Shown here one piece after another: positions 3,476 through 46,114 of a stretch of DNA of 46,114 bases (the stretch's first letter is position 1; every line of letters starts with the position of its first letter). Under the pieces are notes generated by a model. That model made no database searches, was not told the DNA's origin, and saw only the letters and a program-made list of their open reading frames with translations. The translations under genes and the position numbers were made by a program. Location: NCBI GenBank assembly GCA_016903655.1, contig JADQBC010000009.1, positions 1 to 46,114 of the forward strand. The letters are read 5' to 3'. This DNA is from Gomphosphaeria aponina SAG 52.96 = DSM 107014. Its GTDB lineage: Bacteria; Cyanobacteriota; Cyanobacteriia; Cyanobacteriales; Gomphosphaeriaceae.

Positions 3476-6400
3476 ATGGTAAGATTTGCAACTTTTAACG
3501 CTTCTTTGAATCGCAGCAGTTCTGGTGAATTAATTCAAGACCTTTCTACACCAGATAATGCACAAGCTCAAGCAGTAAGTGAAATCATTCAACGGGTAAA
3601 TCCTGATGTTTTACTGGTTAATGAATTTGACTATGATGCGGAGGGTTTGGCTGCTAAACTTTTCCAGGAAAATTATCTTTCTGTTAGTCAAAATGGAGTA
3701 AATCCAGTTGAATATCCTTTTGTTTATTTAGCTCCTTCTAATACGGGGATTGCTTCAGGATTTGATTTAGATAATAATGGGGAAATTGTTACTATTCCTG
3801 AAACTCCAGGGTATGGTGGTGATGCTTTTGGTTTTGGGGATTTTCCAGGTCAATATGGCATGGTAATCTATGCTAAATTTCCCATTATTGAAGCAGAAGT
3901 AAGGACGTTTCAAAAGTTTTTATGGCAAGATATGCCAGGGGCATTATTACCAGTAGATCCAAATACTGGGGCAGCTTGGTATTCTGAAGAAGAATTAGCA
4001 GCATTTCGCCTCTCTTCTAAGAGTCATTGGGATGTTCCCATTGAGGTGGATGGTGAGATAATTCATGTGTTGGTAAGTCATCCCACTCCGCCAGTTTTTG
4101 ATGGCCCAGAAGATAGAAATGGCACCAGAAATCATGATGAAATTCGCTTTTTTGCTGATTATATCACTCCAGGAAAAAATGATTATATTTATGATGATGA
4201 GGGAGTTTTTGGAGGGTTGGAAGAAGGGGCTGCTTTCGTAATTATGGGGGATAATAATGCTGACCCTGTGGATGGGGATAGTGTAGATGGGGCAATACTT
4301 CAATTACTCGAAAATCCATTAGTGAATACTTCGGTTACTCCAGAAAGTGAGGGGGGAGTAGAAGCAGCAGAAAAACAAGGGGGAGCAAATGAAACTCACC
4401 AAGGAAACCCTGCTGATGATACTGCTGATTTTAATGATGAAGGTTCAGGAAATTTGAGAGTAGATTATGTCCTTCCTTCTGAAAATTTAAAGATAATTGA
4501 TGCAGGAATATTCTGGCCAACTACTGATGATCCTCTGTCTTCTTTGTTGGGAGAAGGTGAGGAAGTAACTTCCGATCATCGTTCGGTTTGGGTGGATGTG
4601 CAAGTTGAATCAGAAATTCTTGATTCTTCTCGCAAAACTATTACTAACCTTGACTTTTTAGGTGAAGTAATTATCCCTACTGGTGAGATATTTGCTGATA
4701 CGGAAATTGGGGGACTTTCTGGCATTACTTATGACCCATTGAACCAATTATATTATGTTATTTCTGATGACAGAGGCAACCGTCCCGATGGTGTTCCTGC
4801 TCGTTTTTATACAATTACCATTGATTTAAATGATGCTAGTTTGGATGATGGGGATATTAACTTTACAGAAGTAATAACTCTGCTCAATGAAAATGGTTTA
4901 CCTTTCCCCGCAGATGGGATAGATCCTGAAAGTATTATTTTCAGTGACGCAAAGCAATTATTCATTGCTTCAGAAGGAAATGCTGAAGCATTGCTCAATC
5001 CTTTTGTTAATGAATTTTCCTTGACTGCAGAAGAGTTAAGCCAACTGGAAATACCTGGCAAATTTTTACCCACCGCAGGGGGAAATAGTGGGATTCGGGA
5101 TAATCTGGCCTTTGAAAGTTTGACTATTACTCCAGACCAACGTTTTCTCTATACAGCGGTGGAAAATGCTCTGATTCAGGATGGTGCAGCAGCATCTTTA
5201 GAGGAGGAAAGTGCAGCCAGAATTATTCAATATGATTTGGCAACCAAAACGCCAGTAGGGGAATTTCTCTACTTTACTGATGCTATTCCTGTTGCAGCCA
5301 ACCCGCCAGCGGATTTTGCAGATAATGGTTTAGTTGAGTTAATAGCTATTGATAATACTGGCACATTTTTGGCATTAGAACGGTCTTTTGCTAGTGGGGT
5401 GGGGAATAATATTCGTCTCTATGAGGTACGTCTTCAAGGGGCAACTGATATTAATGAGTTTGAAAGTATTGCAGTTGACCCAGAAAATCCTGATGATGGG
5501 TTATTTGATGTTGATGCAGTGGCAGAAAAACGCTTGCTTTTAGACTTGGGTGAGTTGGGAATAATCCCAGATAATATTGAAGGGATGAGTTTAGGGCCAA
5601 CTCTTTCTAATGGTCAACAATCTCTGATTCTGGTTAGTGATAATAATTTTAGTGAGAGTCAAAAAACTCAATTTCTTGCTTTGGGTTTGGATATTGATAC
5701 TATTCCTGCTGCAATACCAACTGTGGAAACTCCCCCAGAAGTGGGATTGAATGACCCTGGCAACCCTGATGCAGATGACCCAGCAATTTATGTTCATCCC
5801 ACTGACTCTTCTTTGAGTTTAGTGATTGCAACTTTGAAAGATGCAGGGTTGGTGGTTTATGATTTGGAAGGGGAAGAGTTACAGAAAATTTCCCCAGCAG
5901 GTATTCGCTATAATAATGTGGATTTGGTTTATAACTTTGAGTTGGGTGGGGAATTATTAGATTTGGCAGTAGCAAGCGATCGCGCTAATGATACTTTGGC
6001 TATTTTTCAAATCGACCCAGTTACTCGTCAAGTTATTAATATTACAGCCCCAAATTTAAGTGACTTAGCAGCATCAATTTTTGGGGTAGATGATGGGGAA
6101 CAAACAGCTTATGGTTTAGCTACTTATACCAGTCCTATTTCTGGGAAAAGTTTTGTTTTTGTCAGTCAAGCAGATGGCAACCAGATTGCACAGTTAGAAT
6201 TAGTAGATAATGGTGGACTGGTGGATGCTGTTGTTACTCGCATTTTTACTGTTCCCATTCCTGACGCCGAAGACTTAGAAGCTGCTCAAGTTGAGGGGAT
6301 GGTGGTTGATCGCGAGTTGGGTTATCTCTATGTTGGTCAAGAAAATTTCGGGATTTGGAAATTTGCCGCAGAACCCAATAGTGAGGAAACAGGAGTAATT

Positions 6401-39233: not shown

Positions 39234-39809
39234 ATGAGTATTTCACTCCAAAAAGGACAGAAAATATCCTTAGAAAAAGTAGCACCAGGTCTGGTAGCGG
39301 GTTTTATTGGTATGGGATGGGACGTAAAAGCTACGGATACGGGTACAGATTTTGACCTCGATACGTCTCTCTTCCTCTTGGATGCTAATGACAAATTGAT
39401 TTCTGATAAGCATTTTATCTTCTACAACAATCTCACCAGTCCTGATCCAGATGAGTCGGTTAAACTGATGGGGGATAATCAAACTGGGGCAGGAGAAGGG
39501 GATGATGAGGTAATTATTGTGGATCTGCGCAAGGTTCCCCCAGCAGTGCAGAAAATTGTGATTACTGTTACTATTTACGAGGCAGAGCAACGAAAGCAAA
39601 ATTTTGGTCAGGTGCAAAATGCTTATGTCCGTTTGGTGGATGTCCAGACTCAAGAAGAAGTTCTCCGTTATGACTTGGATGAGGATTATTCTATTGAAAC
39701 AGCAATGATTCTGGCTGAATTATACCGCAAGGATGACGAGTGGCGGGTTAATGCTGTTGGTGATGGTTATTCAGGTGGTTTGGCAGCTCTTTTAAATCGT
39801 TATCAGTAG
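39234..39809 (+). CDS. TerD-family calcium-binding stress protein (copy 1)
   Basis: 191 residues, standard TerD length. Start SISLQKGQKISLEKVAPGL, WDVKATDTGTDFDLDTSLFL (first calcium-site acidic cluster), SPDPDESVKLMGDNQTGAGE followed by GDDEVIIVDLRKVP (second cluster), VTIYEAEQRKQNFGQVQNAY, end GGLAALLNRYQ. TerD proteins are linked to tellurite resistance, phage and general stress responses; their biochemical role is unclear. Very similar to the third copy at 42455-43030. Divergent from ggt across 76 bp that holds TATAAT at 39178-39183. Confidence 0.93.
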   Translation: MSISLQKGQKISLEKVAPGLVAGFIGMGWDVKATDTGTDFDLDTSLFLLDANDKLISDKHFIFYNNLTSPDPDESVKLMGDNQTGAGEGDDEVIIVDLRKVPPAVQKIVITVTIYEAEQRKQNFGQVQNAYVRLVDVQTQEEVLRYDLDEDYSIETAMILAELYRKDDEWRVNAVGDGYSGGLAALLNRYQ

Positions 39810-39892: not shown

Positions 39893-40495
39893 ATGGCAAT
39901 TAATTTAGAGAAGGGACAAAGAATATCTCTTAAAAAAGAAGCTCCAGGTTTGACTAGGTTAATGTGTGGTTTGGGTTGGGATGTGGCTAAACCTGCTAAA
40001 GGTGGTTTGTTTGGTATGTTTAGTCAGACTGCGGATTTTGACCTGGATGCTTCGGTTTTATGTTTAAATGCTCAGGGAAGAATTAAAAATGATGCTGATG
40101 TGATTTACTTTGGCAATCTTAACCATAAATCACGGGCAGTTACTCATTTAGGTGATAATTTAACAGGTGCGGGAACTGGAGATGATGAACAAATTATTCT
40201 GGATTTGCCCCAAATTCCTCCTGAAATTTCTAAACTCTTATTTATGGTGAATATTTACCGTTGTCTTGAACGGAAACAGGATTTTAGTCAGGTAAGTAAT
40301 GCTTTTGTGCGTTTGGTAGATTTGGCAAATAATAAAGAAGTTGCTCGCTATAATTTATCTGGAGCAGAATATCAGGGTCAAACAAGTATGATTATGGCAG
40401 AAATTTACCGTGATAATGAGGAATGGCAAATGGCAGCTATTGGGAAGGGAATTAAGGTTAATGGTTTGGAGGATTTGATTAGAAGGTATAGTTAG
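39893..40495 (+). CDS. TerD-family protein (copy 2, divergent)
   Basis: 200 residues. AINLEKGQRISLKKEAPGL, a Gly/Phe-rich insertion GGLFGMFSQTA before DFDLDASVLCLNAQGR, VTHLGDNLTGAGTGDDEQII, VNIYRCLERKQDFSQVSNAF and MIMAEIYRDNEEWQMAAIGK. More distant from copies 1 and 3 than they are from each other. AAGGAAG ribosome site upstream; 83 bp after copy 1, so probably one transcript. Together they form a Ter-type stress module without TerC or tellurite reductase genes in view. Confidence 0.92.
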   Translation: MAINLEKGQRISLKKEAPGLTRLMCGLGWDVAKPAKGGLFGMFSQTADFDLDASVLCLNAQGRIKNDADVIYFGNLNHKSRAVTHLGDNLTGAGTGDDEQIILDLPQIPPEISKLLFMVNIYRCLERKQDFSQVSNAFVRLVDLANNKEVARYNLSGAEYQGQTSMIMAEIYRDNEEWQMAAIGKGIKVNGLEDLIRRYS

Positions 40496-42454: not shown

Positions 42455-43030
42455 ATGACAGTTTCACTGCAAAAAGGAGAGAGAGTATCCCTAGAAAAAG
42501 TAGCCCCAGGTCTAATAGCGGGATTTATTGGGTTAGGATGGGATACAAAAGATACGGATACTGGAGCAGATTTTGACTTAGATGCTTCTGTATTCCTATT
42601 AGGAGCAAATGAGAAACTCATCAGTGAGAAACACTTTGTATTCTACAATAACCTAACTAGCCCAGATCCAGATCAATCAGTTAAATTGATGGGAGATAAT
42701 CAGACTGGTGCAGGGGAAGGAGACGATGAAGTAATTATTGTTGATTTGCGCAAAGTTCCCCAGGAAGTACAAAAAATTGCCATCACTGTGACTATTTACG
42801 AAGCAGAAAAAAGACACCAGAATTTTGGTCAAGTAAGAAACGCTTATGTAAGGTTAGTAGATGTGCAAACTAAAGCAGAAGTACTCCGTTATGATTTGCA
42901 GGAAGATTATTCCACAGAAACAGCTTTAATTATGGCTGAATTGTATCGTAAAGATGGCGAATGGCGCATTAATGCTGTGGGTGGTGGATATGAAGGTGGT
43001 TTAGCAGCTTTGTTAAATCGTTATCAATAG
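42455..43030 (+). CDS. TerD-family calcium-binding stress protein (copy 3)
   Basis: 191 residues, same length as copy 1 and ~85% similar by eye. SLQKGERVSLEKVAPGLIAG, TDTGADFDLDASVFLLGANE, SPDPDQSVKLMGDNQTGAGE, GDDEVIIVDLRKVPQEVQKI, end GGLAALLNRYQ. Strong RBS AGGAGGT at 42440-42446. It is separated from copies 1-2 by lpxD and decayed genes, so either the trio was split by insertion or copy 3 arose by dispersed duplication. Confidence 0.93.
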   Translation: MTVSLQKGERVSLEKVAPGLIAGFIGLGWDTKDTDTGADFDLDASVFLLGANEKLISEKHFVFYNNLTSPDPDQSVKLMGDNQTGAGEGDDEVIIVDLRKVPQEVQKIAITVTIYEAEKRHQNFGQVRNAYVRLVDVQTKAEVLRYDLQEDYSTETALIMAELYRKDGEWRINAVGGGYEGGLAALLNRYQ

Positions 43031-43619: not shown

Positions 43620-45677
43620 ATGGAAAATTTCGGGGAAAAGGTAAGTTTTATCTGGAGTGTTGCTGATTTAATTCGGGATACTTTTAAGCGGGGAAAATAT
43701 CAGGATGTGATTTTACCTTTTACTGTATTGCGTCGCCTTGATTGCGTATTGCAAGAAACTAAAGAATCTGTCCTTGAAACTCACGAGAAATATAAAGATC
43801 AAATTAAAAATTTACAATCTCAGTTATCTAAAAAGTCGGGTTTTGCTTTTTATAACACTTCTCCTTATGACTTTGAGAAGTTGGTTAATGATTCAAATAA
43901 TCTAGCTAGTAACCTTAAAAATTATATTAATGGTTTTAGTAAAAATATGCGAGAGGTGTTAGAAAAGTTTGATTTTCCCAACACTATTGATAAGTTAGAG
44001 CAGTCAAACCTGTTATTTTTAGTGATGGAGAAATTCAAAAATATTGACCTTCATCCCCATCTGGTTTCTAACCTGGAAATGGGCTATATTTTTGAGGAGT
44101 TAATTAGGAAATTTAATGAAGCGCTGGATGAAAACCCAGGGGAGCATTTTACCCCTAGAGAAGTGATTCAGTTAATGGTAAATTTGTTGTTTGTGCAAGA
44201 TAAACAGCCGTTAAGTACAGTAGGTATTATCAAAACTATTTACGACCCTTGTTGTGGTTCTGGAGGAATGTTAACTATTGCAAAGGAGCAGATTTTAAAA
44301 TTAAATTCTCAAGCAATAGTTTATTTATTTGGTCAAGAAGTTAACCCTGAAACTTTTGCTGTTTGTAAGTCAGACTTTTATCTAAAAAGTGAAGATGGAA
44401 AAGATGCAGAAAATATTATGTGTGGGAGTACTTTATCAAATGATTTACATAGCGATAAAACTTTTGATTATTTATTAGCTAATCCTCCCTATGGGAAAGA
44501 TTGGAAACGTGACCAAAAAGCGGTTGAAGATGAGGCAAAAAAACCAGATAGCCGTTTTTGTGCTGGTACTCCTCGTATTAGTGATGGTCAACTTCTGTTT
44601 CTCCAGCATATGTTATCAAAAATGAAGCCATTAAGTGAGGGAGGTAGTCGGGTAGCTATTGTAATGAATGGTTCGCCCTTATTTTCTGGGGATGCAGGAA
44701 GTGGGGAAAGTCAAATTAGACGTTGGATTTTAGAGCATGATTGGCTAGAAGCTATTGTAGCTCTACCTGAACAGCTTTTTTACAATACAGGAATTGCTAC
44801 TTATATTTGGATTTTAACTAATCACAAGGTGGAGGCGAGGAAAGGAAAAGTACAGTTAATTAATGGGGCTGATTTATATCAACCTATGCGCAAAAGTTTG
44901 GGGGATAAACGGCGGGAAATAACTCAAGCTCACATTGAGCAAATAACAGAGTTATTCCTCAGTTTTCGGGAGTCGGATATTAGTAAAATTTTTGCAACGA
45001 GAGACTTTGGTTATCGGAAAATTACTATTGAGCGACCATTAAGGTTGAATTTTCAAGCATCCGCTGAGAGAATTGAGAAACTAAAAGAGCAAACTGCTTT
45101 TGTTAATTTAGCTGTGAGTAAGAAAAAGGATTTAGAGGTTAAACAAGCGGAAGAAACGGCGGGTAAAGAATTACAACAGCAAATTATTAAGGTTTTAAGT
45201 GGTTTGTCTGACACTTTGTATAAGAATAGAGAAGAGTTTGATAAGTTACTGAAAAAAAGTTTTAAGTCTGTTAGTGTAACTAAGGGGACAACAAGGGGCT
45301 TAAGCTCCTTGTCTGCAACACTGCATAAAGCTATTTTATCTGCTCTTTCTGAGCGGGATGAAACTGCTGATATTTGTGTGGATAGTAAGGGTAATTATGA
45401 AGCTGATGCTAATTTAAGGGATACAGAAAATGTGCCATTAAAAGAGGATGTTGATGAGTATTTTGCGAGGGAAGTTAAACCCCATGTTACTGATGCTTGG
45501 GTTAGTGATAGTTTTCGGGATGAGCAAGATGGGGAAATAGGTAAGGTTGGTTATGAAATTAATTTTAACCGTTATTTTTATAACTATGTACCGCCACGAG
45601 ATTTAACAGATATTGAGGCTGATATTAAGCACATTGAAGGGGAAATTTTAGCTATGCTTCAGGAGGTAATAAAATGA
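43620..45677 (+). CDS. hsdM: Type I restriction-modification methyltransferase subunit
   Basis: 685 residues. N-terminal helical domain (LIRDTFKRGKYQDVILPFTV), then GEHFTPREVIQLMVNLLF, SAM motif DPCCGSGGM at 209-217, catalytic N288-PPYG in LLANPPYGKDW (N6-adenine methyltransferase), QLLFLQHMLSKMKP and GIATYIWILTN. This is longer than the ~500 residues of classical HsdM: from ~480 there is a charged C-terminal part (DLEVKQAEETAGKELQQQII ... DVDEYFAREVKPHVTDAWVS) that many cyanobacterial and proteobacterial HsdM share. RBS AAAGGAG at 43602-43608. Overlaps hsdS by 4 bp. No HsdR is in the window. Confidence 0.94.
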   Translation: MENFGEKVSFIWSVADLIRDTFKRGKYQDVILPFTVLRRLDCVLQETKESVLETHEKYKDQIKNLQSQLSKKSGFAFYNTSPYDFEKLVNDSNNLASNLKNYINGFSKNMREVLEKFDFPNTIDKLEQSNLLFLVMEKFKNIDLHPHLVSNLEMGYIFEELIRKFNEALDENPGEHFTPREVIQLMVNLLFVQDKQPLSTVGIIKTIYDPCCGSGGMLTIAKEQILKLNSQAIVYLFGQEVNPETFAVCKSDFYLKSEDGKDAENIMCGSTLSNDLHSDKTFDYLLANPPYGKDWKRDQKAVEDEAKKPDSRFCAGTPRISDGQLLFLQHMLSKMKPLSEGGSRVAIVMNGSPLFSGDAGSGESQIRRWILEHDWLEAIVALPEQLFYNTGIATYIWILTNHKVEARKGKVQLINGADLYQPMRKSLGDKRREITQAHIEQITELFLSFRESDISKIFATRDFGYRKITIERPLRLNFQASAERIEKLKEQTAFVNLAVSKKKDLEVKQAEETAGKELQQQIIKVLSGLSDTLYKNREEFDKLLKKSFKSVSVTKGTTRGLSSLSATLHKAILSALSERDETADICVDSKGNYEADANLRDTENVPLKEDVDEYFAREVKPHVTDAWVSDSFRDEQDGEIGKVGYEINFNRYFYNYVPPRDLTDIEADIKHIEGEILAMLQEVIK

Positions 45678-46006
45678 GTGAGTTAACTGATGTTTTTGGG
45701 AATGATGGTTTTAAGCAATGGCCAAAATATCCTGTTTATAAATCTTCTGGTGTTGACTGGTTGGGGGATATTCCTGAGCATTGGGGGGTTACTAGACTAA
45801 AAAACATTAGTACAATTAATGTTAGTAATGTAGACAAAAAAACAGTTGAAAATGAACAAAAAGTAAAATTATGCAATTATACTGATGTTTATTATAATGA
45901 TTGTATAACAGATGATTCAAAGTTTTTAATAGCATCTGCGTCTAAAGAACAAATAAAAAAATTTATTCTTCAAAAAGCAGAAACGTTGAATGTTAAGAAA
46001 ACTTAG
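45674..46006 (+). pseudogene. hsdS: hsdS specificity subunit, broken after its first ~100 residues
   Basis: Starts in the 4-bp overlap with hsdM. KQWPKYPVYKSSGVDWLGDI followed by PEHWGVTRLKNI is the usual entry of an HsdS first target-recognition domain, and LCNYTDVYYND and KEQIKKFILQK follow. Normal HsdS continues 'KGDVLITKDS...' for ~300 more residues with a second TRD. Here the frame reads KAETLNVKKT and stops at 46004-46006, inside a 12-bp hairpin. So the gene was interrupted around 45975-45985 (or the break is an insertion junction), and the enzyme would lack the second half-site unless another HsdS exists. Confidence 0.75.
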
Positions 46007-46013
46007 CATTTAA
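45986..46013 (+). other. Strong hairpin at the hsdS break (possible mobile element end)
   Basis: TTGAATGTTAAG (45986-45997), loop AAAA, CTTAGCATTTAA (46002-46013): 12 pairs with two wobbles. It begins where hsdS homology stops. After it comes AT-rich sequence with TTATAATGTGGATAAC (promoter-like -10). Subterminal hairpins are typical of IS200/IS605-type ends, so this may be the left end of an insertion; the window ends before any transposase gene could be seen. Confidence 0.4.
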
Positions 46014-46114
46014 AGAGCTAAAATCTGTTATAATGTGGATAACAAAACTCAAAATAACTGATATTAATGTTTATTTCTAACTTCCCAAAAATCGCAAATC
46101 TTCTTTTAAAAGAT

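Follow-up and report, generated by a model that had tools for sequence, protein, structure and literature searches.

A probable IS4-family insertion interrupts hsdS of a type I restriction-modification operon in Gomphosphaeria aponina

The hsdS gene of a type I restriction-modification operon in Gomphosphaeria aponina is very probably interrupted by an insertion sequence of the IS4 family, of the IS4Sa type, that has transposed into it (probability about 0.93). This reading rests on a repeat boundary inside hsdS, on a second copy of the repeat elsewhere in the genome, and on the homology of the element end and of its first transposase codons to complete elements. The window, that is the whole stretch of DNA that was analysed (46,114 nt), is the entire contig C78 of a draft genome of 146 contigs with an estimated completeness of 76%. 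The features that bear on the break are as follows.

43620 to 45677, + strand: hsdM, type I DNA methyltransferase subunit of 685 aa, apparently intact (open reading frame; PF02384, PF12161)
45674 to 45977, + strand: 5' fragment of hsdS, ending one base after codon 101 (homology to relatives, the alignment stopping at the break)
45969 to 45977, + strand: predicted left copy of the 9-bp target-site duplication, TTCAAAAAG (by analogy with the 9-bp duplications of complete relatives)
45978 to 46114, + strand: left end of the probable IS4-family insertion sequence, truncated where the contig stops (137-bp repeat; homology to related left ends)
45978 to 45991, + strand: left terminal inverted repeat, CAGAAACGTTGAAT (the right-end type at C9, C125 and C93 opens with the same 14 bases; inverted pair in complete relatives)
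45986 to 46013, + strand: imperfect 12-bp hairpin, TTGAATGTTAAG-AAAA-CTTAGCATTTAA (10 Watson-Crick pairs, 2 G-T)
46067 to 46114, + strand: first 16 codons of a transposase gene, MFISNFPKIANLLLKD, which continues past the contig end (translation; likeness to complete relatives)

HsdM carries the Pfam domains N6_Mtase and HsdM_N and is 50% identical, over 710 columns, to HsdM of locus L061, a Candidatus Omnitrophota MAG in which the gene order is hsdM-hsdS-hsdR. As in that operon, hsdM of the window is directly followed by hsdS, the start of which overlaps the hsdM stop by 4 bases. The HsdS fragment gave no Pfam or NCBIfam match, so that its identity depends on relatives: residues 11-101 are 59% identical to a 449-aa open frame in genome G300, identity with locus L059 is 58%, and some match to the fragment was present in 64 of the 388 genomes covered by an order-wide search, its own included. 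The earlier note had placed a break in HsdS homology at ...IKKFILQK, and this was borne out by an alignment of four sequences, in which homology stops at KKFILQK (codon 101). Past this motif the relatives continue with GDVLLTKDSE, GDVIITKDSE or NDVLITKDSE; the window frame has 9 further codons and then an in-frame stop (codon 111).

Type I HsdS subunits have two target-recognition domains with conserved regions. With residues 1-101 left out of about 450, the window gene is cut about a quarter of the way in, within the first recognition half; it does not have the two domains and is a truncated member of the family by homology. In annotation this hsdS is to be labelled an interrupted gene, not a short one. 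Separately, a related hsdS in another genome (L095, G379:C170, 40-3041) looks short, with 310 aa and an apparent end in the second half, and adjoins an intact hsdM.

The exact breakpoint, 45977/45978, was set by the boundary of a repeat and lies eight bases ahead of the hairpin. The last 137 bp of the window match C141:3-139 on the minus strand with 1 mismatch, the C141 match being a contig start, and the 30-bp flanks outside the repeat are unrelated DNA in C78 and C141. The repeat thus begins exactly at the break and recurs with another flank, and other genomes carry complete insertion sequences with homologous ends (71-74% identity in the long matches at the left ends of related elements), which supports the earlier proposal that the end of a mobile element lies in hsdS. 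At its inner side, MFISNFPKIANLLLKD resembles MIISNFPQVVQ and MIINSFPKVVK of complete relatives, and a TATAAT hexamer was seen by eye within the element, which would have entered hsdS with its transposase gene in the hsdS direction. No complete copy was found in the contigs of this genome. On C66, a related right end is directly preceded by sequence coding for the C-terminus of a transposase (59% identity, residues 244-339).

Among 100 genomes searched at the DNA level, 5 carry the same element end, this genome being one of them. We examined ten copies with both ends readable: of the eight G007 matches, seven were used, and G080, G011 and G042 contributed one copy apiece; L037 and L040-L042, at contig ends without a right end, were left out. 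These ten complete copies are 1176-1182 bp long and have the inverted ends CAGAAryrTTGAAT. Their 9-bp target duplications are perfect in eight copies; one agrees at 8 of 9 bases and one is absent. The transposase is encoded by a single frame of 342-345 codons (stop to stop) in nine copies and is split over two frames in the G080 copy. The G011 transposase scored 192.8 bits with the NCBIfam IS4 family model NF033592 (cut-off 115), both transposases run against Pfam matched PF01609, and the G007 signature, YRLRWQIELLWKFLK, is the exact Y-2-R-3-E-6-K of a DDE transposase.

For IS4Sa, Table 1 of PMC2266710 gives a size of 1150-1750 bp, ends CA------T, repeats of 8-10 bp and the presence of YREK. 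The complete relatives fall within this length range and share the CA------T ends, a duplication of 9 bp and Y-2-R-3-E-6-K, with no difference among the features tested, the comparison being with the criteria of that table. The window holds only the first 137 bp and 16 codons, and its element end starts CAGAAACGT, fitting CA------T. Judged by its complete relatives (their size, their ends, the length of their duplications and their transposase signature), the window element appears to belong to the IS4 family and is best placed in IS4Sa.

The earlier note had taken the hairpin for a possible sign of an IS200/IS605-like element. The hairpin is present, with 2 of its 12 pairs being G-T. Folded as single-stranded DNA it reaches -4.8 kcal/mol, a value equalled or bettered by 9 of 200 shuffles (z -1.8), and is only marginally better than chance; it is not listed in the repeat scan of the window. 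Elements of the IS200/IS605 class lack both inverted terminal repeats and target duplications, encode the Y1 (HUH) transposase TnpA, and carry a conserved subterminal hairpin at the end. A short hairpin with a 4-nt loop, 8 bases inside the window element, is a point of likeness to this class and would serve there as the left-end recognition structure. However, the relatives of the element have terminal inverted repeats, 9-bp duplications and a PF01609 IS4-family DDE transposase, and the 12-pair fold is confined to the window, as it did not form in the matching stretches of the three relatives folded (L036, L032 and L037). An IS200/IS605-like element in hsdS is therefore extremely improbable, and the hairpin is probably incidental, being unneeded to explain the element and no evidence for that class. 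Of the earlier claim, the insertion into the specificity gene stands, but the element class is corrected to the IS4 family.

The insertion also accounts for the end of the contig: C78 halts at the break because the insertion sequence there is present more than once in the genome. In this genome, the exact 14-mer CAGAAACGTTGAAT occurs at 5 sites, and at 4 further sites with one mismatch, compared with 1 match for a control pattern. Four of the exact sites (C78, C141, C9, C125) are no more than about 140 bases away from the end of a contig, the distance being 136-140 bp on C9 and C125, and the C93 site is internal; such proximity is expected, since short-read contigs halt in a multi-copy element. 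At two of the one-mismatch sites, C66 and C137, likeness to the right end extends past the 14-mer; the other two, on C112 and C130, have no such likeness and appear to be chance matches. The assembler would have halted about 137 bp into the multi-copy repeat. Past the contig end one would then expect the remainder of the element, followed by its 9-bp duplication TTCAAAAAG and the 3' portion of hsdS. Neither the right copy of the duplication nor the right end of the element was found in the 76%-complete assembly. The right-end copies on C9 and C125 might have been the other half of the window copy, but this was rejected, as the adjacent 9 bases differ from TTCAAAAAG.

A search of the bin for the rest of hsdS, by family and with the C-terminal parts of two relatives, did not find it. 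This result would suit an adjacent deletion or rearrangement that accompanied the insertion and left the element without the 3' portion of hsdS behind it. We consider this unlikely, as the bin is 76% complete and the fragment may be on a short contig outside the bin. An assembly error joining hsdS to the repeat might be invoked because the genome is a draft and the junction lies at the end of a contig. It is, however, very improbable: the junction coincides to the base with the terminus (CAGAA...) of the element ends, as seen elsewhere in this genome and in other genomes, which is not expected of a random misjoin.

The readable product consists of 101 HsdS residues and 9 foreign ones. It lacks the second target-recognition domain altogether, and most of the first is missing too. 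A type I specificity subunit so reduced cannot place HsdM or HsdR on DNA, and the product should fail to direct either of them. Because the recognition domains are mostly missing, both modification and restriction by this system are predicted to be lost. Rescue by another system looks unlikely, since the other hsdS genes are too dissimilar and no other HsdM exceeds 32% identity: the hsdS searches returned, in addition to the window, only three loci, on C18, C62 and C108 (417, 479 and 455 codons, respectively), none of which matched the window fragment at E <= 0.001. It is also very doubtful that the insertion can be reversed, or is carried by only some cells of the population, so as to act as an IS4 on/off switch of the type I system; if so, methylated and unmethylated cells would be mixed.

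Compared with the L061 operon, the window hsdS is interrupted and an HsdR is found on a different contig, C83, where an intact hsdR-like gene encodes a protein 41% identical to HsdR of L061. C83 is at most a candidate continuation of the operon, as this contig starts in another abundant repeat end (TTTCGCAAGAGGTCT). Genomes routinely alter their defences by losing restriction systems to transposition, and an IS4-family insertion in hsdS is an ordinary event of an already-known kind. The available portions of PMC2266710, PMC8700078, PMC6265443 and PMC2824730 describe no IS4-family insertion in a cyanobacterial hsdS.

The repeat end TTTCGCAAGAGGTCT occurs at 36 sites in this genome (G000; for example C20:6547-6683, C129:22874-23010 and C143:2-137), in many cases some 122-126 bases away from the start of a contig, and forms at least three inverted pairs about 137 bp long; it is probably a very abundant MITE-like element or an insertion-sequence end. 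One copy adjoins a degenerate transposase remnant, of the same IS4 type as the element in hsdS, with ten stop codons (L073, G000:C126, 131-532). On C83, the region upstream of the hsdR-like gene (L072, G000:C83, 1-750) contains an antitoxin-type frame at 376-750, which we take to be a HigA-like antitoxin, and what is presumably, by eye, a HigB-like toxin remnant with its start cut by the TTTCGCAAGAGGTCT repeat. Further along this locus (4401-4727) are short in-frame repeats, read as KGRAPT units on one strand and FCRGTT on the other. In the window, three paralogues that we assume to be TerD-like lie close together upstream of hsdM, at 39234-39809, 39893-40495 and 42455-43030.
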